Assembly: GCA_023653075.1 (NCBI GenBank) | Contig: JAMNXQ010000020.1 | Coordinates: forward strand, 1-39,372 | Source of the DNA: Algoriphagus sp. | GTDB lineage: Bacteria; Bacteroidota; Bacteroidia; Cytophagales; Cyclobacteriaceae | Reading direction: 5' to 3' | DNA: 39,372 nucleotides | In this document: positions 174-10,828 of the stretch, one piece after another | Numbering within the stretch: the stretch's first letter is position 1 | How the letters are laid out: each line of letters opens with the position of its first letter | The notes under the pieces: model-generated | What the model saw: the letters and a program-made list of their open reading frames with translations, nothing else | The model's database searches: none | What the model was told of the DNA's origin: nothing | Position numbers and translations under genes: made by a program

Positions 174-1979
174 TTAATCTTCCTTCTTCGCCATTCTTGT
201 TCTTTCGTTTTCATCCAAGTAGATTTTTCGCATACGGATGGACTTTGGTGTAATTTCCAAGTACTCATCTTTTTGGATGTATTCCATGGATTCTTCCAAA
301 GAAAAACGCTTAGGAGGAGCAATTCGTACATTGTCATCCGAACCAGAGGCACGCATGTTGGTCAATTTCTTGCCTTTTTGTACGTTGACCACAATGTCGT
401 TGTCACGGGAATGTTCGCCGATAACTTGACCGGTATATAAGTCATCACCCGGTTCGATAAAGAAGACCCCGCGATCCTGAAGTTTGTCAATGGCATAAGC
501 AGTACACTGTCCGCCTTCCATGGAGATGAGGGAACCGTTGATTCTTCCTGGAATAGGCCCTTTAAAAGGTTCGTAGGCTTCAAAACGGTGATTCATGATC
601 GCTTCACCTTGGGTAGCAGTCAGGACGTTGTTTCGCAATCCGATCAAGCCTCTGGAAGGGATTTTAAATTCCAAGTGCTGCAAGTCGCCTTTCGGTTCCA
701 TAATCAGCAATTCGCCTTTCCGTTGGGTAGCCAATTCAATTACCTTACCGGCAGTTTCCTGAGGCACATCCACCACAAGGGTTTCGATAGGCTCGCACTT
801 CATGCCATCGATTTCCTTGAAGATTACCTGAGGTTGACCTACTTGAAGTTCGTAGCCTTCTCTTCGCATGGTCTCAATCAATACAGACAAGTGAAGGATG
901 CCTCGGCCATACACCAAGAATCGATCTTCTGAATCCGTGGATTCTACACGAAGGGCCAAGTTCTTTTCAGTTTCCTTCATCAAACGATCTCTTAAGTGGC
1001 GGGAAGTCACAAATTTACCTTCTTTTCCAAAGAATGGAGAGTTGTTGATGGTGAAGAGCATATTCATCGTAGGCTCATCAATGGAGATACGCTTGAGTGG
1101 CTCTGGATTGTCTACATCCGCAATGGTATCTCCAATTTCAAAATCTTCGATACCGGTTACGGCGCAAATATCACCTGCTGATACCGTCTGAACTTTATTT
1201 TTTCCAAGACCTTCGAAGGTGTGCAATTCTTTGACACGCATTTTCTTAATGGAGCCATCCGCCTTGCAAAGAGCAATTTGCTGGTTTTCAGAGATAGTTC
1301 CTCGAGCGATACGCCCGATGGCAATACGGCCCACAAAATTGGAATAGTCCAAAGAAGTGATTTGCATTTGCAAGGTTCCTTCTTCAATTTTTGGTTCAGG
1401 AATGTGGTCGATGATCGCATCCAACAAAGGAAGAATAGAGTCAGTTGGGTTTTTCCAGTCAGGCCCCATCCAGTTTTGCTTGGCAGAGCCGTAAAGCGTC
1501 TGGAAGTCAAGTTGCTCCTCTGTGGCATCGAGGTTAAACATCAGTTCAAATACCGATTCGTGTACCTCATCAGGTCTACAATTTTCTTTGTCGACCTTGT
1601 TGACTACTACGATAGGAGTAAGCCCAAGGGCCAAGGCTTTGCCCAATACAAAGCGGGTTTGAGGCATGGGTCCTTCAAAGGCATCGACAAGGAGAATGAC
1701 CCCGTCGGCCATTTTCAATACGCGTTCAACTTCCCCGCCAAAGTCGGCGTGACCGGGGGTGTCAATGATGTTGATCTTATGGTCCTTGTAGCGAACGGAT
1801 ACGTTTTTGGAAAGGATGGTGATCCCTCGCTCACGCTCAAGATCGTTGTTGTCCAGGATGAGGTCTTCAAATTGTTGGTTTTCTCTGAAGATTTTGGAAA
1901 CGTGGATGATTTTATCCACAAGAGTTGTTTTACCGTGGTCAACGTGTGCGATGATCGCGATATTCCGAATTTGCTGCAT
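174..1979 (-). CDS. typA: translational GTPase TypA/BipA
   Basis: Ribosome-associated translational GTPase of the EF-G-like superfamily, linked in other bacteria to 50S assembly and stress or cold growth. Seen in the 601-residue product: P-loop AHVDHGKT at 11-18, switch I RERGITI at 49-55, DTPGH at 73-77 and NKVD near 127-130. EF-G-like domains II, III and V and the TypA-specific C-terminal part follow (RFLVYGRGILHLSVLIE, then GELLIMEPKGD and IPSRGLIGLRNN). The length is normal for TypA. An in-frame upstream start at 2036 would add 19 residues before MQQIRNIAII; the ATG at 1979 gives the normal family N-terminus and is chosen. It is monocistronic, with a terminator downstream and a TACTTTTG -7-like element just upstream at 2007-2000. 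Confidence 0.97.
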   Translation of the reverse strand: MQQIRNIAIIAHVDHGKTTLVDKIIHVSKIFRENQQFEDLILDNNDLERERGITILSKNVSVRYKDHKINIIDTPGHADFGGEVERVLKMADGVILLVDAFEGPMPQTRFVLGKALALGLTPIVVVNKVDKENCRPDEVHESVFELMFNLDATEEQLDFQTLYGSAKQNWMGPDWKNPTDSILPLLDAIIDHIPEPKIEEGTLQMQITSLDYSNFVGRIAIGRIARGTISENQQIALCKADGSIKKMRVKELHTFEGLGKNKVQTVSAGDICAVTGIEDFEIGDTIADVDNPEPLKRISIDEPTMNMLFTINNSPFFGKEGKFVTSRHLRDRLMKETEKNLALRVESTDSEDRFLVYGRGILHLSVLIETMRREGYELQVGQPQVIFKEIDGMKCEPIETLVVDVPQETAGKVIELATQRKGELLIMEPKGDLQHLEFKIPSRGLIGLRNNVLTATQGEAIMNHRFEAYEPFKGPIPGRINGSLISMEGGQCTAYAIDKLQDRGVFFIEPGDDLYTGQVIGEHSRDNDIVVNVQKGKKLTNMRASGSDDNVRIAPPKRFSLEESMEYIQKDEYLEITPKSIRMRKIYLDENERTRMAKKED

Positions 1980-1999
1980 GATTTGCCTTATTGAAGGCG

Positions 2000-2007
2000 C
2001 AAAAGTA
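2000..2007 (-). promoter_or_regulatory. putative -7 element for typA
   Basis: On the minus strand this reads TACTTTTG, an exact match to the Bacteroidota -7 consensus TAnnTTTG, 20 bases upstream of the typA ATG. No TTG sits at 17-23 bases upstream (the nearest is 26 away), so the -33 box is weak or absent. Confidence 0.45.
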
Positions 2008-2171
2008 TGAATAAAAGTTGGGATTAAGGTTACCAAACTGCGAAGTTTCTGGCCTTATACTTACGGTCACTTTTCCTACAAGTCTTGATTTAGACTGTTT
2101 TAAAGAAGCCTTTTGGAATTATTCTTGGGGTTGGTTTTCCTTTTTACCCTTCCACTTGCCCGGAACTTGAC

Positions 2172-2825
2172 TTATTTGGTAAAAAACGGAGTAAACAACT
2201 GGTTCCAAACTAGGTAGCCTTTGGCGTTCAAGTGCAACTGGTCCTGGAGGTAGAGTTCGGGTCTAGGATTGCCTTGCTCGTCAGTCAAAGCCCTCCAGGT
2301 ATCGAGGTATGTCACCTGTTCTGCTTGGTCGCAATAGACGCGTAGGAGCTGGTTGAAGGTCTGGTAAGACTCTTTTTTCTCCCATCGGGATGGGCTTGGC
2401 TTTGCTCCAATGAGGACAATCTCTGTTCCCGGATCCACCAAATGGATGCGGGTCACAATTTGCTTAAGACTATTCAGAATGTCTTCCGAAGGGACGCCTG
2501 CCCAAAGGTCGTTGTCTCCTTCGTAAATAAAGACACGCTCGGGGTCAAACTTCAACACGAGGGGAAAAAGGTATCGCTCCAAATCCAAAGCCTTAGATCC
2601 TCCGAACCCCGTGTTGAGTACTTCCGTACCCACGCTGACCTCGGGAAGACTATGCCACATTCGGATCGTAGAACTTCCAGTAAAAACAGTTGCTCCAGGA
2701 TTCCATCCGATACTGTCCAATCGCGCACTTAGCCTTCGTACCTCTTCTTCAAAGGGATGTTGTTGGGCAATGCTCGCACTCCAGCTGCTTAGAAAAACCA
2801 AAACTAGAAAAATGGATTTTTTCAT
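2172..2825 (-). CDS. secreted SGNH/GDSL-family hydrolase
   Basis: Probable esterase or lipase-like hydrolase exported to the periplasm; the substrate cannot be told. The 217-residue protein starts with a signal peptide (MKKSIFLVLVFLSSWSASIAQ). It then shows the SGNH blocks: nucleophile Ser in FTGSSTIRMW, Gly in NTGFGGSKALD, Asn in YEGDNDLW, and the C-terminal Asp/His in DQLHLNAKGY. The four-block layout and size fit the GDSL-like family PF13472. It is a single gene between typA (same strand) and a divergent DUF4407 gene. A TAGGTTTG element at 2837-2830 may be its -7 box, and an inverted repeat lies just upstream of that. Confidence 0.88.
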   Translation of the reverse strand: MKKSIFLVLVFLSSWSASIAQQHPFEEEVRRLSARLDSIGWNPGATVFTGSSTIRMWHSLPEVSVGTEVLNTGFGGSKALDLERYLFPLVLKFDPERVFIYEGDNDLWAGVPSEDILNSLKQIVTRIHLVDPGTEIVLIGAKPSPSRWEKKESYQTFNQLLRVYCDQAEQVTYLDTWRALTDEQGNPRPELYLQDQLHLNAKGYLVWNQLFTPFFTK

Positions 2826-2829
2826 CCCT

Positions 2830-2856
2830 CAAACCTACTCAAAATTAGTGAGTCAA
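2830..2856 (-). promoter_or_regulatory. putative promoter of the SGNH hydrolase gene
   Basis: Minus-strand TAGGTTTG (2837-2830) matches TAnnTTTG. A TTG lies at 2856-2854, giving a 16-base gap that is slightly short for this promoter class. The element would start transcription almost at the ATG, so a leaderless or very short leader is implied; this lowers confidence. Confidence 0.4.
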
Positions 2857-2857
2857 A

Positions 2858-2879
2858 ATCGATCATTTTTTTGATCGAT
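2858..2879. repeat. 8-bp perfect inverted repeat in a divergent intergenic region
   Basis: ATCGATCA (2858-2865) and TGATCGAT (2872-2879) are separated by six T. The repeat sits between the divergent SGNH hydrolase and DUF4407 genes, beside the putative hydrolase promoter. An operator or a DNA-level cruciform are both possible; no T-run follows that would make it a terminator. Confidence 0.6.
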
Positions 2880-3051
2880 AGTGAACATTTTTCAAGCTTG
2901 TATTCTTTTCCTGTTGGAGGGTTCAAAACTAGTTTTCTGCGATATTTCTTGTTTTTGGGATTTTTGCAAAATAAATGACCCTAAATATCTTTCCTTCAAC
3001 TTATTGGTTGAGTTTTCGCTTCATCTAAAAAGAATTCTAACAACCTTCGAC

Positions 3052-4170
3052 ATGCAGGTACTTACCCGTTTCTTCTGGTTTTGCAGCGGCGCAAATTTCT
3101 CCATCCTCCAGAAAGCACCTACCGAATCCAATAAATACCTTGGAATCGGTGCCACAGTGTTTTTTACAGGGTTTTTTGCTGCTTTAGCTGGATTTTATGC
3201 CCTCTATACCGTTTTTCAATCCTGGTGGATAGCACTGGTTTTTGCCTTGCTTTGGGGAGCGATGATCTTCAATTTGGATCGGTTTATCGTATCCAGCATG
3301 CGAAAAAAAGAACAAGGCTGGTCGGAATGGAGGTTGGCCCTTCCTCGATTGGCCTTGGCCTTGCTTTTGGCTGTCGTGATTTCAAAGCCCTTGGAGTTGA
3401 AACTCTTTGAGCGGGAAATCAATCGAAAGTTGGATGAGCAGAAGATCGCTTTCATCAAGCAATCCAAGGATAGTCTAGCCAAGGGATTCCCAGAAATCCA
3501 GGCCTTGGAAACCGAAAAAGAAGCCCTCAAAAAAGAGGTACACCAAGCGCGTACCTTCCGAGACAAGTTGCAGCAAGAATACGACGCGGAGCGCTTTGGG
3601 GAAAAAACAGCCAGCACAAGTGGGAAAATTGGTTTGGGTACCAATGCCAAGAAAAAGGAGCAACAATTGGATGCAGCTCAGGAGGACTTGAAAGCACTTT
3701 CTGCTCGTAATGACATGAGAATGCAGAAATTGGAGGTTCAAATCGAAGAATTTAGAGCCAAGCGTCAACTGGAGTTTGAGAAGCAGGTGCCCGGCATCGA
3801 TGGTTTCGATGGCTTTGCGGCACGGATGGATGGTTTGGCCAAACTTACCGAGGAAAGTGAGGCCATGGCTACTGCAGAACTGTTTTTGGTGCTGCTTTTT
3901 ATAGCGATAGAAACCGCTCCGATTTTTGTTAAACTAATTTCTACCCGCGGACCTTATGACGAACTTTTGGAGTTGCATGAGGATCAGGTCAAATTGTATA
4001 AAAATGAAAAATGGCAGCGAGCAAGTGGAGAGTCTGAAGCCCGACTCAGTTACTTTAAGGCTACCCACTTTTATGCATCGGAATTGGCTGCTGCTTCCAT
4101 CAATGCGGAAAACGAACAGAAATCCGAATTGAGTAAAAAAAGGGCTATTGGAAAGATGGAGAATCGCTAG
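3052..4170 (+). CDS. DUF4407 family membrane protein with long coiled coil
   Basis: Function unknown; inner-membrane protein. The open frame extends up to 2881, but the family N-terminus (FWFCSGANFSILQKAPTE, then KYLGIGATVFFTG) begins right after the ATG at 3052, so that start is chosen (372 residues). Two transmembrane helices lie near residues 30-75 and one near 98-112. Then comes a highly charged coiled coil of about 150 residues (KEALKKEVHQARTFRDKLQQ) and a fourth helix near 275-295 (LFLVLLFIAIETAPIFVKLI). The C-terminal tail is charged. This architecture is typical of DUF4407. It stands alone, convergent with the VIT1-type gene. Confidence 0.85.
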   Translation: MQVLTRFFWFCSGANFSILQKAPTESNKYLGIGATVFFTGFFAALAGFYALYTVFQSWWIALVFALLWGAMIFNLDRFIVSSMRKKEQGWSEWRLALPRLALALLLAVVISKPLELKLFEREINRKLDEQKIAFIKQSKDSLAKGFPEIQALETEKEALKKEVHQARTFRDKLQQEYDAERFGEKTASTSGKIGLGTNAKKKEQQLDAAQEDLKALSARNDMRMQKLEVQIEEFRAKRQLEFEKQVPGIDGFDGFAARMDGLAKLTEESEAMATAELFLVLLFIAIETAPIFVKLISTRGPYDELLELHEDQVKLYKNEKWQRASGESEARLSYFKATHFYASELAAASINAENEQKSELSKKRAIGKMENR

Positions 4171-5450: not shown

Positions 5451-5660
5451 GGGATATGAATTTTAGCAATAAATTGTTCCTTTTTCGGTACCCCCTATCT
5501 TTTTTGAAACTCCTGTTTCTCAGACGCTGTGCTTTGTTTTTAAAATACCTAGTACGTTTTTCAGAATACACCTTCCTCTCTTCAAATGTGCGGTCCTCTT
5601 GTTACTAAACAAGGGAAACTAGGAGATGCTATTTTTTAAATTTTTTAGGATAGATACAGA

Positions 5661-5697
5661 TAAAAAAATAAAAAAAATAAAAAAAATAAAAAAAATT
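5661..5697. repeat. 9-bp period A8T simple repeat
   Basis: T followed by 7 A, then three units of T plus 8 A, ending in TT. The phased A-tracts (period 9) lie 130 bases upstream of the lipoprotein start. Such tracts can bend DNA or slip in replication. Confidence 0.85.
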
Positions 5698-5825
5698 CTT
5701 TTATTAATAAAAATAAATTTTTAAGTTTCTCCTGTAATCACCTTCAAATCAGGCAAATTCCAGAGGCTAGCCACCTCCATTCATGACCATTTTTTAAAAA
5801 TTCTTCACTTTTTAACTCAAAACAC

Positions 5826-7244
5826 ATGCAACGAAATCGATCACATTTTTTAAGTATCCTCTTGGCTGGCTCCTTACTTTTCAGCGCCTGCCTTCCCAAA
5901 GAGGAGTTACAACTGACTCAGGCAGATCCGATCTGGACGCAAACGCTTCCACTGGACGAATGGCAGCAGGTAGAAACAGCCAAAGAATTTTCGCAGCTGC
6001 TCGGCGAGGTGATGCAAAACAAAGAAGCACGGGTCACACTTAGTGCACACATTCAGCAGTACGATGACTTCGGGGATGCAGTTTCCCTAGCAACCTTGCT
6101 TGGAGAGAAGCAAACCATGCCGCCTTCGGAACTCGCCACGTTAAGTCGTGCAGGTAATATTAGTTCCTTGCGTGCAGGAGCAAACCCCTTTCGGGAAGCC
6201 CTCATTCAGCATTCTTTGGAGCATTTGGATGCCTATCCTTTTTTAGTAAGGGGGTTGGAAACCTTTCGTGCTCGGCCCGAGCGTGCGCAGCAGCGGGTAT
6301 CTCTTCAGGAGGAGTTGATTTCATTTTTTGCAAGCCAAGGCTTGGTAATTCACTTTCCTTACGAGGAGCGGTTTGATTGGGAGACCTATGCGGAATCAAT
6401 CACGACCACCTACGATCCCCTTATTCGGGAAGACTGGAACGAAGGGTTTTTGTACTCGCTCACTGGTGGAGGGATATCTGGTACCGAAGGCAAGCGACTT
6501 CCTTATGTAGACGATGCGTATTCACTTGATCAAGCCACACTGGTGGTGACTTACCTCGATGAGGATTTTTACGAGATGAATACTACTCCTCCAGTTCCCG
6601 AACTTCCAACACCTGCTGCTGATGCGGTAATTTTGACTTATAATGTCAATCATACCTCCATCTCCCAAGCGGATATTTTATTTACGACGATTCCGGAAGT
6701 GAAACTTACCAAAAGAGATTACATAGGCCTATTTGGTAGGATTGTTAAGGTACGGTTGTATAGAGGTTCCAGTAAGGTCAAGGTCAATTTTGATGGTACA
6801 GTTGCTGCTGGAGTGGATGGCGATACCTACCGTTACGATTTAATAAAGTTTTCGAAAGATGATATCAAATTGGAAAGATGGAAGACGGTCAATATCCAAT
6901 TTGACCCAGACTGGGACATGACCGAAAACAGCCAGCAATTTTTCCTTTTTACGGAGCATAACTTGACTGGAAAGGCCAAAGCAAATGCTGGAGTCAAAGT
7001 GGGGTATGATTTTATAAAAAAGGAAGTCACTGCTGAAGCTACGGCCTCTGTCAACTTAGAAGTGGAATCTGAAAGTTCTCGATTTCGAGTCAATACGGAG
7101 TTGTCTCGAAGATCAGTTTTGGCCTATGTAGTAGGAGCTACTGACCAAGGAGTCCGTACCCGAAATGGCATCGATTACAATGTTAAAAATGTGGGACTCC
7201 TACATTTTTATTTCGAGCACCGATTTACGGACATCCCAGGCTAA
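5826..7244 (+). CDS. hypothetical lipoprotein (gene A of the A-B pair)
   Basis: I do not recognise this 472-residue protein. It has a type II signal peptide with a lipobox (LLFSAC, Cys at about residue 22), so it should be anchored in a membrane. The N-terminal half is rich in charged helix-like sequence, with Trp/Glu-rich stretches. The C-terminal half, from about residue 270, looks beta-rich (KAKANAGVKVGYDF, VTAEATASVNLEVES) and ends FYFEHRFTDIPG. Gene B follows after 41 bases, so the two are probably one transcript. The last 28 residues have a clear homologue in frame at 8008-8094, the remnant of a second copy (A'). The upstream region is AT-rich with simple repeats. It may be a surface or envelope structural protein, but no function is supported. 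Confidence 0.8.
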   Translation: MQRNRSHFLSILLAGSLLFSACLPKEELQLTQADPIWTQTLPLDEWQQVETAKEFSQLLGEVMQNKEARVTLSAHIQQYDDFGDAVSLATLLGEKQTMPPSELATLSRAGNISSLRAGANPFREALIQHSLEHLDAYPFLVRGLETFRARPERAQQRVSLQEELISFFASQGLVIHFPYEERFDWETYAESITTTYDPLIREDWNEGFLYSLTGGGISGTEGKRLPYVDDAYSLDQATLVVTYLDEDFYEMNTTPPVPELPTPAADAVILTYNVNHTSISQADILFTTIPEVKLTKRDYIGLFGRIVKVRLYRGSSKVKVNFDGTVAAGVDGDTYRYDLIKFSKDDIKLERWKTVNIQFDPDWDMTENSQQFFLFTEHNLTGKAKANAGVKVGYDFIKKEVTAEATASVNLEVESESSRFRVNTELSRRSVLAYVVGATDQGVRTRNGIDYNVKNVGLLHFYFEHRFTDIPG

Positions 7245-7285
7245 AACCGCTTGACTTCTTTTTTAAAACTTTAACTCCTAATCCT

Positions 7286-7945
7286 ATGAAAAATGCAACC
7301 TGGTTGGCCTTAATCCTATTTCTTTCCTTTCCTCCGGCGATGGCTCAAAAGCTAGATTCAATTCTATCTAAATCTAGCCTAAGCTTTAGTTATGGCCTAT
7401 CCCATGATTTCTTTGCTTGCTGTGTGGATACAAACGATAAGTTACCAATCGTAAGTTTTAATAATCGAAGCGAGGTAGGAGAGGCGTTTGGTTTTGAATT
7501 CACCTACCGCCCTGAAGGAAAAAATGAGTACGGATTTGGATTTTCCAAGGATGTCAATTACAGGGACTTCACGGTAATTAAACAAACTTCTTTCGCCTTA
7601 ATCAATTTTGATGACTATCGAATTCGTGGGACCAAAAACTTCCATTACCTGCTGTACAAGCGGCATTTTATTGAAGAGAAGTTGATCGGTGCAGCTGGAA
7701 TTTACAACCTAAGGTACCGAGATCCTTATGTAGAAATTATAGGAAACTCAGACCAAACCATAGTCACATTAAGTGATGAAGTTGTAGTAATTGATTTCGG
7801 GATTTTTGCTGGACTTGAATACTACCACTCCCTTCGCGAAAACTTCCAAATTGGCTTACGCACGCGTCTATTCTACACGCAGGGCTACTCTGAGTCCTTC
7901 GAGAGTTTTGAATTGACTCCTGTGCTTCGGTTTAGGTTGAATTAG
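7286..7945 (+). CDS. hypothetical outer-membrane beta-barrel-like protein (gene B)
   Basis: Unrecognised 219-residue protein with a signal peptide (about residues 1-20, ending AMAQ). The rest alternates aromatic and polar residues in short strands (LSFSYGLSH, FGFEFTYRP, YGFGFSKDVNY, FAGLEYYHSL, IGLRTRLFYTQGY) and ends TPVLRFRLN, consistent with a small outer-membrane barrel of about eight strands. It follows lipoprotein gene A by 41 bases and precedes a terminator. A paralogue with a nonsense codon lies at 8136-8780. The two share almost identical 5' and 3' ends and a more divergent middle. Function unknown. Confidence 0.8.
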   Translation: MKNATWLALILFLSFPPAMAQKLDSILSKSSLSFSYGLSHDFFACCVDTNDKLPIVSFNNRSEVGEAFGFEFTYRPEGKNEYGFGFSKDVNYRDFTVIKQTSFALINFDDYRIRGTKNFHYLLYKRHFIEEKLIGAAGIYNLRYRDPYVEIIGNSDQTIVTLSDEVVVIDFGIFAGLEYYHSLRENFQIGLRTRLFYTQGYSESFESFELTPVLRFRLN

Positions 7946-7960
7946 GGATACGTCCTGAAT

Positions 7961-7991
7961 GCAGCGGAGAAGGTGACTCCTCCGCTGTTTT
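7961..7991 (+). terminator. terminator of gene B; sequence duplicated at 9757
   Basis: GCAGCGGAG (7961-7969) pairs with CTCCGCTGT (7980-7988), and a short T-run follows. The left flank and arm (gaatgcagcggagaagg) recur exactly at the terminator near 9753-9769, so the two terminators have a common origin. Confidence 0.75.
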
Positions 7992-8007
7992 GCACAAAGT
8001 AGTTCAT

Positions 8008-8094
8008 ACTCAAAATAGAATCGACGATTATGAAAAAAGTGTGGGTTCATTGCGTTTTTATTTCGATCAACGCTTTACGGACATTCCCGACTAA
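8008..8094 (+). pseudogene. 3' remnant of a second copy of lipoprotein gene A (A')
   Basis: In frame, these 29 codons read ...SVGSLRFYFDQRFTDIPD and stop. This aligns without gaps to the C-terminus of the intact gene (...NVGLLHFYFEHRFTDIPG, stop at 7244). The distance from this stop to the next gene's ATG is 41 bases, the same as between A and B, and the spacer bases are similar (cacttctttttttaaaactt against gacttcttttttaaaacttt). The rest of the gene (about 440 codons) is gone, and the remnant abuts the gene B terminator. Confidence 0.85.
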
Positions 8095-8135
8095 GTCCGT
8101 TTCACTTCTTTTTTTAAAACTTAAATTCTATTCCT

Positions 8136-8780
8136 ATGAAAAATGCAACCTGGTTGGCGCTCCTATTTTTCCTATCCTTTCCCAACGCGATGGCTCAAAA
8201 GCTTGATTCCATTTTGTCTAAATCTAGCTTCAGCTTTAGTTATGGACTTTCGAATGATTATAATTCTTATGATCCCATACCTATCGAAAGATATGTTGAG
8301 ATGAAGGGTAGAGGGGAGGCATTTGGCTTTGAGTACTTGTATAGACCTGCTGGAAAAAATGAGTTTGGGTTTGGGTTTTCGAAGCAGGTGAATTCGGAGG
8401 ATTATTCTTTTGTCGTTCAAACTCCAACAGCAGTAGTTTTCTTTGAAGATTACCGAATTCGAAAGGTAAAAAACTTTCATTAATTGGTATTCAGACGACA
8501 TTTTATCGAAGACAAGTTGATTGGTTCAGCAGGGCTATTTAATCTGCGGTTTAGAAATCCATATATCCAGATAAGTGGGACAGCTTCAGGTCGAACTCAA
8601 GTTTCACTTCATGATGCTCCTATAAATTCAGACTTTGGCGCTTTTGTGGGGCTGGAATACTACCATTCCCTTCGTGAAAATTTCCAAGTGGGCCTTCGTT
8701 CGCGACTTTTTTATACGAGTGGATATTCCCATTCTTTCGAGAGTTTTGAATTGACTCCTGTGCTTCGGTTTAGGTTTTAG
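8136..8780 (+). pseudogene. gene B paralogue interrupted by one stop codon (B')
   Basis: The reading frame is a close paralogue of gene B from signal peptide (MKNATWLAL) to C-terminus (ELTPVLRFRF). It is broken only by TAA at 8481-8483. At the aligned site gene B has KNFHYLLYKRHF (Tyr codon TAC), while here it reads KNFH-stop-LVFRRHF, so one C-to-A change explains the break. Downstream codons remain in frame and well conserved, which suggests a recent lesion, a read-through, or a sequencing error. A terminator follows at 8811. The N-terminal 116-residue piece and a TTG-started 98-residue piece could in principle be made separately. Confidence 0.85.
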
Positions 8781-8810
8781 GTAGGGGTTCCGTACGTTTT
8801 TTAGGTTACC

Positions 8811-8850
8811 AACGGCTATAATGACATAGTATAGCCGTTTTTATTTTTTA
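8811..8850 (+). terminator. intrinsic terminator after B'
   Basis: AACGGCTATA (8811-8820) and TATAGCCGTT (8830-8839) form a 10-bp perfect stem with a 9-base loop, followed by TTTTATTTTTT. Confidence 0.85.
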
Positions 8851-8878
8851 GCTTAAAAAGAAATATGAGTAAAAAAAA

Positions 8879-8908
8879 TTGGAAAAATAAAATTTCAATC
8901 TACCTTTG
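8879..8908 (+). promoter_or_regulatory. promoter of the padR-like operon
   Basis: TTG at 8879-8881 and TACCTTTG at 8901-8908 with exactly 19 bases between: a consensus Bacteroidota promoter. Expected start is near 8914, giving a leader of about 25 bases before the ATG at 8938. Confidence 0.75.
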
Positions 8909-8919
8909 TATTATATCAA

Positions 8920-8932
8920 TAGTATAATACTA
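8920..8932. promoter_or_regulatory. candidate operator palindrome
   Basis: TAGTAT-A-ATACTA is a perfect inverted repeat in the leader, just downstream of the predicted start site and 5 bases before the regulator ATG. A repressor bound here would block its own gene. The site is not the classical ATGT-N8-ACAT PadR operator. Confidence 0.45.
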
Positions 8933-8937
8933 ATAAT

Positions 8938-9288
8938 ATGGTAGAAGAACTGTTATCCATTTGGGAAGAGACCTACAAAAAGGGACAGCTCACGTTTTGG
9001 ATGTTTATTGCCTTAAAGCATGGGGAAAAATATGTGGATGAAATTAGATCCTTCATTCAAGAATTTTCCGAACAAACCATTTCTTATGATGAACAAAGTT
9101 TATACCGCAGCCTAAGAAAATTCCAGCATTTAGACATCGTGGAGTTTGTACTAAAGCCTGGCGCCTCCGGCCCAGAACGCAAATACTATCGCTTGACTAG
9201 TTCAGGAGAGCAGCTTTTGGAGAAATTCATCGAAAGGAATATTCTATTGTTGCACTCTTCTAAAATTTCTAATCTTTTAAAATCCTAA
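8938..9288 (+). CDS. PadR-family-like winged-helix transcriptional regulator
   Basis: Small 116-residue DNA-binding protein. The pattern is that of the PadR N-terminal domain (PF03551): an initial helix with LTFWMFIALKHG, a recognition-helix region (SYDEQSLYRSLRKFQHLDIVE), then the beta-wing with GPERKYYRLTSSGEQLLEKF, the hallmark RKYYRLT-x-G-x-xLL. Long C-terminal PadR helices are absent, so it is a short PadR (subfamily 2 type). It is followed after 3 bases by a membrane protein gene, a common PadR arrangement in which the regulator controls its membrane partner. A consensus promoter and a palindrome precede it. The ligand is unknown. Confidence 0.75.
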   Translation: MVEELLSIWEETYKKGQLTFWMFIALKHGEKYVDEIRSFIQEFSEQTISYDEQSLYRSLRKFQHLDIVEFVLKPGASGPERKYYRLTSSGEQLLEKFIERNILLLHSSKISNLLKS

Positions 9289-9291
9289 ATC

Positions 9292-9711
9292 ATGAAAATT
9301 TTAACAAACCCCATTCTACTTCGATTTATTGGAGTACTTGCCTTGTGGAATATCCTGTTCCGATTTTCCCTTTCCTATGTTCTTGAAAACGAGTATTGGA
9401 TAGGAGCTGTTTTAGCACCAGTCATTTTCTTCCTTGTCATGTATCAAACTGGTCGGTATTTTGGATTAAAGCAATGGAATGACTTACCTGTGAATATGTC
9501 ATTTACCTACCATCTTTCCAACTTCGCTGTGTTTTTCTTGGTGTCCTATGGATTTTATTTTGTAGGTCTTTTGTCAAAATACGAATCAATTAGTAGTGTA
9601 AACTATACCCTTGTTTTCTGGGGGATTGGGCTATTCGTTCATTTTCTTTACTACCGGAAGGAAATGAAAAACTCAATCAAAGGATTGGATCGAGATCAAT
9701 TGTTTGATTGA
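9292..9711 (+). CDS. hypothetical four-helix membrane protein
   Basis: 139 residues with about four hydrophobic segments (LLRFIGVLALWNILF, GAVLAPVIFFLVMY, FAVFFLVSYGFYFVGLL, TLVFWGIGLFVHFLYY). The ends are charged, with a cytoplasmic-type tail KEMKNSIKGLDRDQLFD. I do not recognise the family. It starts 3 bases after the PadR-like gene and must be co-transcribed and probably co-regulated with it. A terminator follows at 9757. Confidence 0.8.
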   Translation: MKILTNPILLRFIGVLALWNILFRFSLSYVLENEYWIGAVLAPVIFFLVMYQTGRYFGLKQWNDLPVNMSFTYHLSNFAVFFLVSYGFYFVGLLSKYESISSVNYTLVFWGIGLFVHFLYYRKEMKNSIKGLDRDQLFD

Positions 9712-9756
9712 ATTTGATTGCCTTTGGCAAGAATGAAAAGTAAAAAACTTTTGAAT

Positions 9757-9790
9757 GCAGCGGAGAAGGAAATTTCTCCGCTGTTTTTTT
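9757..9790 (+). terminator. intrinsic terminator (second copy of the 7961 type)
   Basis: GCAGCGGAGAA (9757-9767) pairs with TTCTCCGCTGT (9774-9784), followed by seven T. It shares the 17-base gaatgcagcggagaagg with the terminator after gene B. Confidence 0.85.
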
Positions 9791-9802: not shown

Positions 9803-10828
9803 CTATTCCTTCAACGAAAGTACTTGAAGCAGCAACTGCCGGCGATGGGCATAGGTGAAGTAACGCTCGATACGCGCTCGAGGAGAGGTTAGCTGGGTTT
9901 TTCCAGCCATCCAATCCTGAATCAACTGTTGCAAGGTGCTCAGCTCTTTCCGTTTGAGTAACAAGCCCGAATCCCCAATGATCTCTGGAATGGCACCTAC
10001 CGCCGACCCAATGGGCAGACAGCCACAGGCCATGGCCTCACCCAAGGCATTGGGGAAGCCCTCCGAACTGGAAAGCTGCAAATAAAATTCATGGGTATTG
10101 TAGCGCTGCACTAAGGATGCTGGGGTCTCTTTTCCTAGTACCTGAATATTGCTGGATTGGGGTTGGTAGTTGGAATCTCCCACCAAGGTAAAGCTCCACT
10201 TGGGATTATTTGCTGCCAATTTTTCAATCAAGTCGTATCCCTTAACCCGTGCACGGGCAGGAGTGGAGGTACTCGTAGCGACAGAAATAAAGCTGTGCTT
10301 CAACCGCTTCATCCCCAAGTCCTTCCAAAAATCCACATCAAATCCATTTGGAATGACCTGAATGGGGGTCTTCAAACCGGGAATCAGTTGCAGAAGCCCC
10401 TGCTTCGGATTGATCCGGTGGTCATAATTGTAGTGTTGGCTGACCAAGGCTTCGGCTACGGGCAAGATCAAGCTGCAATGGGTAAAGGAGTAGGCAGTAG
10501 CCCAAGCCAAGGGATTCTTTCGAAAGTTGCCATAGCCAATCTCCGGCATGTTGATGCAGTCGGTGCCACCAGCTTGGATGGTGCATTTTTTACCAAAAAC
10601 TCTCCCAAAAATCACCGGCAACAGGGTATGATATCCTCCAAAAAAACAGAGGTATTGACTGGTTTTTGGGAGGTACCAGAGCAATTGAAAAAATTGGAGT
10701 ACCAAGTACAAGGGGAGTTTCCAAGGTGTCTGGGTAAATTCCAGCGGTACAATCTTGGCCACAGGACGGATCATTTCCAAGTCACGTTCAATAAAGGTGG
10801 TTCGTACTGGAAACAAATACAAAATCAT
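9803..10828 (-). CDS. GT4-type glycosyltransferase
   Basis: Retaining glycosyltransferase of the GT-B fold that would transfer a sugar from a nucleotide donor, probably in cell-surface glycan synthesis; acceptor and donor are unknown. The 341-residue protein has a GT4 C-terminal half: VATSTSTPARARVKGYDLIE (a variant of the usual KG..LL block), WSFTLVGDS, and the EX7E signature region EGFPNALGEAMACGCLPIGS followed by AVGAIPEIIGDSGLL. The N-terminal half is less conserved and shorter than usual (GGYHTLLPVIFGRVFGK). It lies downstream of leuS on the same strand but beyond the leuS terminator. Confidence 0.88.
   Translation of the reverse strand: MILYLFPVRTTFIERDLEMIRPVAKIVPLEFTQTPWKLPLYLVLQFFQLLWYLPKTSQYLCFFGGYHTLLPVIFGRVFGKKCTIQAGGTDCINMPEIGYGNFRKNPLAWATAYSFTHCSLILPVAEALVSQHYNYDHRINPKQGLLQLIPGLKTPIQVIPNGFDVDFWKDLGMKRLKHSFISVATSTSTPARARVKGYDLIEKLAANNPKWSFTLVGDSNYQPQSSNIQVLGKETPASLVQRYNTHEFYLQLSSSEGFPNALGEAMACGCLPIGSAVGAIPEIIGDSGLLLKRKELSTLQQLIQDWMAGKTQLTSPRARIERYFTYAHRRQLLLQVLSLKE

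Follow-up and report, generated by a model that had tools for sequence, protein, structure and literature searches.

How does a gene pair without a known family come to be followed by the end of a second such pair? The question is raised by a stretch of 39,372 nucleotides (nt) from Algoriphagus sp. (GCA_023653075.1, contig JAMNXQ010000020.1, positions 1 to 39,372 of the forward strand), referred to here as the window. In it, gene A, for a predicted lipoprotein, and gene B1, for a probable small outer-membrane beta-barrel, precede the tail of another A and another B, which we call B2 (B' in a preliminary description of this DNA). That description read the arrangement as a whole-unit duplication followed by deletion of one A. 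Comparison with related loci gives a different answer, as B1 and B2 belong to distinct, old allelic types, and each has orthologues of its own in other species. We consider it highly likely that a cassette made of a type-1 C-terminal part of A (A-CT1) and B1 was inserted before a resident A tail and B2. The elements of the locus are as follows.

5826..7244, + strand: gene A, a predicted lipoprotein of 472 amino acids (aa), from the open reading frame (ORF), with the lipobox Cys at residue 22 (CLPKEE)
5826..6680, + strand: N-terminal part of A (A-NT), about residues 1-285, which follows the species (Mantel and approximately unbiased (AU) tests)
6708..7145, + strand: variable C-terminal part of A (A-CT), about residues 295-440, type 1 (aa identity, covariation with B)
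7245..7285, + strand: spacer between A and B1, 41 nt
7286..7945, + strand: gene B1, a signal-peptide protein of 219 aa and probable small outer-membrane beta-barrel, type 1
7961..7988, + strand: terminator-like hairpin 3' of B1 (folding; a similar hairpin in L029)
about 7990-7995, + strand: insertion joint just 3' of the B1 hairpin (same joint in L029)
7996..8094, + strand: displaced tail of a former A, 32 codons and a stop, lacking a start codon
8095..8135, + strand: displaced spacer of B2 type, 41 nt (matches to L029, L030 and L031)
8136..8780, + strand: B2, the displaced former partner, a pseudogene in the window (tree, dS)
8481..8483, + strand: in-frame TAA that breaks B2

Much of the preliminary description holds. 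The ORFs place A (5826-7244), B1 (7286-7945), the second A tail and B2 where it had put them, and both A-B spacers are 41 nt long. The two units align over 266 nt at 77% (7144-7409 against 7994-8259), with further blocks of 146 nt (79%) and 83 nt (75%), and this similarity is beyond chance (best BLASTN block 169 bits; in 100 dinucleotide-Markov controls the maximum was 28.8 bits). The reading as a lipoprotein A and a small outer-membrane-like B, neither of a known family, stands. The second A has indeed lost most of its length, and the joint adjoins a hairpin 3' of B that folds like a terminator. Two details needed correction. The second A tail is present, with its start at about 7996 and not at 8008, and B2, taken to be almost whole, is split by its TAA into frames of 115 and 98 codons. 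The decay that had been suspected is in progress.

The two B genes of the window are 67% identical to each other, with 1.79 synonymous (dS) and 0.25 non-synonymous (dN) substitutions per site. B1 is 92-94% identical to B of the related loci L029, L036 and L032, and B2 is 73-89% identical to B of L030, L031, L033, L034 and L039. Synonymous divergence is 0.42-0.63 between B1 and the type-1 genes of L029, L036, L032 and R009, and 0.40-0.73 between B2 and the five type-2 species, lowest for L034 (0.40). In the B tree, B2 of the window groups with L034, L039 and L033. Copies from a recent tandem duplication should be each other's nearest relatives, which they are not, either in dS or in the tree. 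Because each B has nearer relatives in other species, they are not products of one recent duplication. Two units and erosion remain from the earlier picture of a duplicated and eroded pair; copies of one duplicated unit do not.

Gene A is a mosaic. Over residues 20-285, A of the window is 89% identical to A of L029 and L030, and 71% to that of L032 and L034. Over residues 296-440, identity is 89-99% within type 1 (window, L029, L036 and L032) and falls to 61-66% between type 1 and type 2 (L030, L031, L033, L034 and L039). At the nucleotide level, in full blocks of 60 sites, L029 and L030 agree at 52-60 sites as far as codon 280 and at 36-46 in codons 281-460. We compared distances among A-NT, A-CT, B and the flanking glycosyltransferase gene (GT) with Mantel tests on nine of 12 taxa, leaving out L039 (partial A) and R009 and L037 (no full flanking gene). 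Correlations were high for A-NT with GT (r 0.93) and for A-CT with B (r 0.92, p 0.0003), and near zero across these sets (A-CT with A-NT, -0.03; A-CT with GT, 0.04; B with A-NT, 0.04; B with GT, 0.14).

Phylogenetic analyses agree with this division. Grouping the species by B type was rejected for both types by the A-NT data (AU p 7e-53 and 2e-81) and the GT data (7e-5 and 4e-8), and the type-1 grouping was not rejected by the A-CT (p 0.31) or B (p 0.45) data; these p values are descriptive, since the types were defined once the alignments were known. The A-NT tree was built without L039 and the GT tree without R009 and L037. Type 2 forms a clade at 100/100 in the A-CT tree and at 77/90, not starred, in the B tree. 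Since A-NT tracks the flanking gene, A-CT tracks B and the two sets are uncorrelated, the C-terminal part of A and B are, to judge from these alignments, exchanged between species of these lake bacteria as one cassette.

A comparison of L029, L030 and the window suggests how such an exchange proceeds. The flanks of L029 and L030 are close (dS 0.21 for the VIT1-type gene, 0.21 for A-NT and 0.26 for GT), and the two diverge in the first B (dS 1.22) and in A-CT, where dN is 0.23 and dS is saturated. L029 shares layout and joint with the window: a second A tail and second B lie 3' of its first B, from position 10164. Its contig ends within the second B; L043, from the same genome, shares 149 nt with it exactly and continues, carrying the rest of that gene, unbroken, and then a hairpin and GT. 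This second B is separated from the only B of L030 by a dS of 0.21 and a dN of 0.024, and groups with L030 and L031 in the B tree (100/100). As it is almost the same gene as the only B of L030, the second copy appears to be a displaced former partner, and, given the close flanks, L030 would represent the locus before a type-1 cassette came in, and L029 the locus thereafter.

The window joint, common to L029, consists of the hairpin, a T run and then A from residue 441 onward. The second spacer of the window matches that of L029 at 42 of 42 positions and those of L030 and L031 at 41 of 42, compared with 32 of 42 for its own first spacer. The first 90 nt of B2 match L030 at 86 positions and the window's own first unit at 73. 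The displaced tail of L029 is likewise nearer to L030 (86/98) than to its own first tail (74/98). The 99-nt tail of the window has decayed: it matches L039, the best single-B locus, at 77 of 98 positions, L030 at 71 and its own first tail at 70.

The mosaic, the covariation, the shared joint and the match of B2 to the single B of a close relative, all read from sequence, point to the following history. A and B would be a co-adapted surface pair, in which the lipoprotein A stays constant in its N-terminal part and varies in its C-terminal part. The A C-terminus and the following B would move together between species by recombination, with the left border inside A, in a conserved stretch at about codons 255-283, and the right border beyond B. 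In the lineage that the window shares with L029, a cassette of type 1 (A-CT1, B1 and the hairpin) probably entered between the A stem and the type-2 end already in place, so that the old partner B2 and the final 32 codons of the old A stayed behind. B2 of L029 is still open, and that of the window would have gained its stop codon later. We infer both the order of events and the purpose of the system. If this is correct, the apparent duplication becomes a before-and-after picture of allele replacement, in which L030 is the old state, L029 the new one with the old partner unbroken, and the window the new one with the partner broken, and the locus would be a surface system that can be switched.

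The protein sequences give some indication of what the pair might do. The lipobox Cys is invariant in 10 aligned A proteins, including one from another order. The residues after it (CLPKEE) contain K-E-E, but place K at +4, a position without K in the surface-export signal of lipoproteins (LES) of C. canimorsus. A residues 43-170 form a helical stretch in the AlphaFold model, with block-mean pLDDT of 50-93. A has no Pfam family above the cut-off and no PDB relative found by sequence. Its NCBIfam matches are weak (NF047490 in 5 of 11 A proteins, best E 0.013, cut-offs not shown), PF01823 (MACPF) is absent from the E<=1 matches of the 11 A proteins scanned with sequence profiles, and a PADLOC scan gave no match. 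Neither A nor B matched a Pfam profile of SusC or SusD type. B has no Pfam match, and the NCBIfam model for the gliding-motility protein CglE matched 3 of 12 B proteins weakly (best E 0.0057), that of the window not among them. B1 and B2 differ mainly in three segments with 11, 42 and 45% identity, compared with 64-88% elsewhere. We interpret B as a probable small outer-membrane barrel, in which the variable segments look like surface loops, and A-CT may bind it. A B1-type gene of only 177 aa occurs in L051 and L009 (G006), with an in-frame loss of about 41 residues that includes the second variable segment; between B and GT these loci carry a gene that we take to be PhzF-like.

The purpose that we favor is recognition between cells. 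This could take the form of antagonism, in which B would be the partner for self-recognition or immunity and to which we would give somewhat less than an even chance, or of switching of surface type under phage or grazer pressure, which is about as likely and close to an even bet. It is possible, but doubtful, that the pair represents an undescribed Bacteroidota class of surface recognition or antagonism, in which a lipoprotein effector C-terminus and a small barrel self or immunity partner are swapped between species as a cassette and orphans downstream may still protect. Beyond the systems compared below, we found no such A-B pair described in the literature searched, which is weak evidence, as most subscription journals were outside its scope.

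Several observations weigh against the history or the functions proposed above. All genomes compared are metagenome-assembled genomes (MAGs), and the displaced tail of the window is undecided between L030 and its own first tail. Three A-CT sequences do not fit the two types: R009 (G006) is nearer to type 1 (79-81%), L035 lies between (68-76%) and L037 outside (54-69%). The A-NT tree has no starred branches, and the AU p values have the descriptive status noted above. The displaced B2 copies have changes at 2 of 73 and 3 of 71 invariant sites, compared with 0-5 in functional B, so that no loss of constraint was detected, and B2 of L029 may be in use rather than debris. The body of B2 is of the L034 subtype in the window and of the L030 subtype in L029, and therefore more recombination must have followed the shared joint. 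AlphaFold models of A and B are poor (mean pLDDT 45 and 44), which leaves the barrel and the A-B contact as predictions, and no toxin, pore-forming or immunity domain was found in A or B by Pfam, NCBIfam or PADLOC scans.

The alternative that survives best keeps the same cassette history and assigns A-B to an uptake or adhesion complex, in which switching is an escape from phages or grazers and B2 is debris; its chances are just short of even. Variation in the loop-like segments of B, the broken B2 of the window and the missing toxin domain would all fit, but the same scans gave no convincing transporter or adhesin family match, and B2 was kept open in L029. As for the history itself, complete A-B2 and A-B1 loci might have been joined in tandem by interspecies recombination, with most of the second A deleted later. 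The joint between hairpin and A tail could mark an old deletion as readily as the edge of an insertion, but one extra step is required and a full second A is seen in none of the 12 readable loci of the genus, and we regard this as unlikely.

Very improbable is an ancestor with a B1-B2 tandem and differential loss by species, without interspecies transfer. The outlying L037 also has a tandem B pair, but its two B genes group together outside both types (100/100). Loss cannot explain why the A C-terminus switches type with B, and B1 of the distant L032 is nearer to the window (dS 0.42) than is the flanking GT gene (dS 1.05). Slightly less probable still is the tandem duplication of a single A-B unit in the window lineage, with deletion of one A and divergence of the second B. 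The same order of the units, their equal spacers, their clear nucleotide similarity and the near-equal tail matches favor it, but it is contradicted by the dS values and the B tree, by the second spacer and B2 5' end, which resemble L030 more than they do the first unit of the window, and by the separate MAG L029, where the layout recurs with another subtype of B2. An assembly artefact, suggested by the 69 contigs and 67% completeness of the window genome and by the split of the L029 locus over two contigs sharing 149 nt exactly, is hardly credible when two separate MAGs have the same joint.

Among 72 genomes of the genus, one per species and several of them incomplete, A was matched in 14 and B in 12, and none of the 12 with B lacks A. 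The locus is flanked by the VIT1-type gene and GT on every contig long enough to show them. B lies directly 3' of A in the 12 genus loci with a readable junction, the window included; L039 has only the end of A, and contigs L038 and L040 end inside A. The comparison of repeat number that the preliminary description called for gave a second B in three of 12 loci (window, L029 and L037), and no full second A in the 12 where A and B are readable. No further A or B copy was found by searches of the window's own genome, which is 67% complete. L037 has two intact tandem B genes that group together (1569-3111), and no A tail can be recognised between the two; tandem B genes have probably arisen repeatedly. 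In G409 (L052/L027), A-B was lost at the same locus, where a remnant of A of about 207 nt, covering residues 131-199 and with one stop, lies beside GT. The MAGs L030, L032, L033, L038 and L039 are labelled Spirosoma fluviale, yet they group in the genus of the Cyclobacteriaceae/Algoriphagus records, and the name looks wrong.

Beyond the genus, A is rare. A family-wide sample of 390 genomes gave eight matches, seven of them in the window's genus, its own genome included, and a class sample gave two in 277, the window and L077, from the window's family. A phylum profile search of 395 genomes found one distant A homologue besides the window (29% identity over 443 aligned columns, hhalign), in a genus of the same class in which A was matched in 5 of 299 genomes. 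A small barrel-like ORF lies directly 3' of the distant A in all six readable loci (five of this other genus and L077). These ORFs have 196-247 codons; by eye, their start resembles a signal peptide and their pattern a barrel. By hhalign, the adjacent ORF is B-like in one of the six (L064, 95.5%) and not in L050, L061, L062, L063 or L077; in L050, the third ORF is B-like (97.7%). L078 (G164) has a weak A-like frame at a contig end, and the region behind it is unreadable. In L050, L061 and L063, the pair lies beside the same three genes, by eye including a flippase-like and an acetyltransferase-like one, and the A N-terminal parts of L063 and L050 are just 26% identical; this pattern looks like replacement at a fixed site. 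Behind the L050 pair (5861-7566) are an open frame without a start codon, not related to A, and a lipoprotein-like gene that by eye resembles one behind the L063 pair; these are perhaps further displaced modules.

Two further elements of the window lie downstream of the cassette.

8938..9711, + strand: genes for a PadR-type regulator and a 2TM-like protein, past B2 and before the locus-end terminator, context outside the cassette (Pfam)
9757..9784, + strand: locus-end terminator (consensus terminator scan)

The hairpin at 7961-7988 (-18.4 kcal/mol, z -3.3) has a terminator-like stem and a T run just four long; it was not listed by the consensus terminator scan, and the related one at 9757-9784 was. 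In extended form (7956-7991 and 9752-9787) the two are 89% identical, 1.8 kb apart, and a hairpin like 9757-9784 lies directly 3' of B in eight of nine single-B loci. Probably, one of the two came with the B1 cassette. The hairpin at 9752-9787 looks like the original locus end, now split from B2 by the PadR/2TM stretch. PadR scores above the Pfam cut-off and 2TM just below it. Among the 72 genus genomes, the 2TM gene occurs in the window only, with fragments in G406 and G012; that of G406 lies on the VIT1 contig, at the place expected for A-B. The site beside GT (region of window 8790-9751) seems prone to insertions. Upstream of A, the intergenic stretch 5640-5728 is very A-rich with short repeats, and could serve as a promoter region or be prone to slippage.

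Sus- and Btu-type complexes of Bacteroidota also combine a lipoprotein gene with an adjacent outer-membrane barrel gene, as A-B appears to do, but B, at 219 aa, is far smaller than a TonB-dependent transporter. The natural matched and mismatched pairs of these two proteins without a known family make binding and specificity directly testable, and if antagonism or kin recognition proved true, the surface weapons known from Bacteroidota would gain a type with a barrel partner.

Two other classes are among the closest known systems. Reports on polymorphic toxin loci, contact-dependent growth inhibition (CDI; cdiA-CT/cdiI) and Rhs-CT/rhsI, describe a constant 5' part, a 3' part exchanged with its partner, and downstream orphan modules without a start codon that may be displaced ancestral pairs (PMC9086364, PMC3967940, PMC3482391). 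A-B has a constant N-terminal and an exchanged C-terminal part, an adjacent partner gene that changes with the A C-terminus (the Mantel correlation of A-CT with B), and a displaced start-less 3' end with its partner downstream (7996-8780 in the window, and L029/L043). Unlike CDI and Rhs, it has no toxin, delivery or immunity domain recognisable by Pfam or PADLOC (NCBIfam matches being weak), its partner is a probable outer-membrane barrel, the window keeps just 32 codons of the old A C-terminus, and the A C-terminal types are still homologous (61-66%) rather than unrelated domains.

BSAP-1 of Bacteroides is described as a toxin in the form of a surface lipoprotein. Its C-terminal domain binds an outer-membrane barrel, and its gene adjoins a non-targeted barrel allele, "suggesting coacquisition" (PMC4999547, PMC12853789). 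A is likewise a predicted lipoprotein with a variable C-terminal part, encoded beside, and apparently co-acquired with, an allelic gene for a putative barrel. It differs in that the MACPF profile, by which BSAPs are defined, gave no match, its fold not being judgeable on the poor model. Strains sensitive to a BSAP carry the target allele and lack the toxin gene; no genus genome has B without A (12 of 12 have both, in the sample of one, sometimes incomplete, genome per species), which speaks against such a pattern here. As A fails the sequence definition of a BSAP, we keep A-B outside both classes, which it resembles in architecture.

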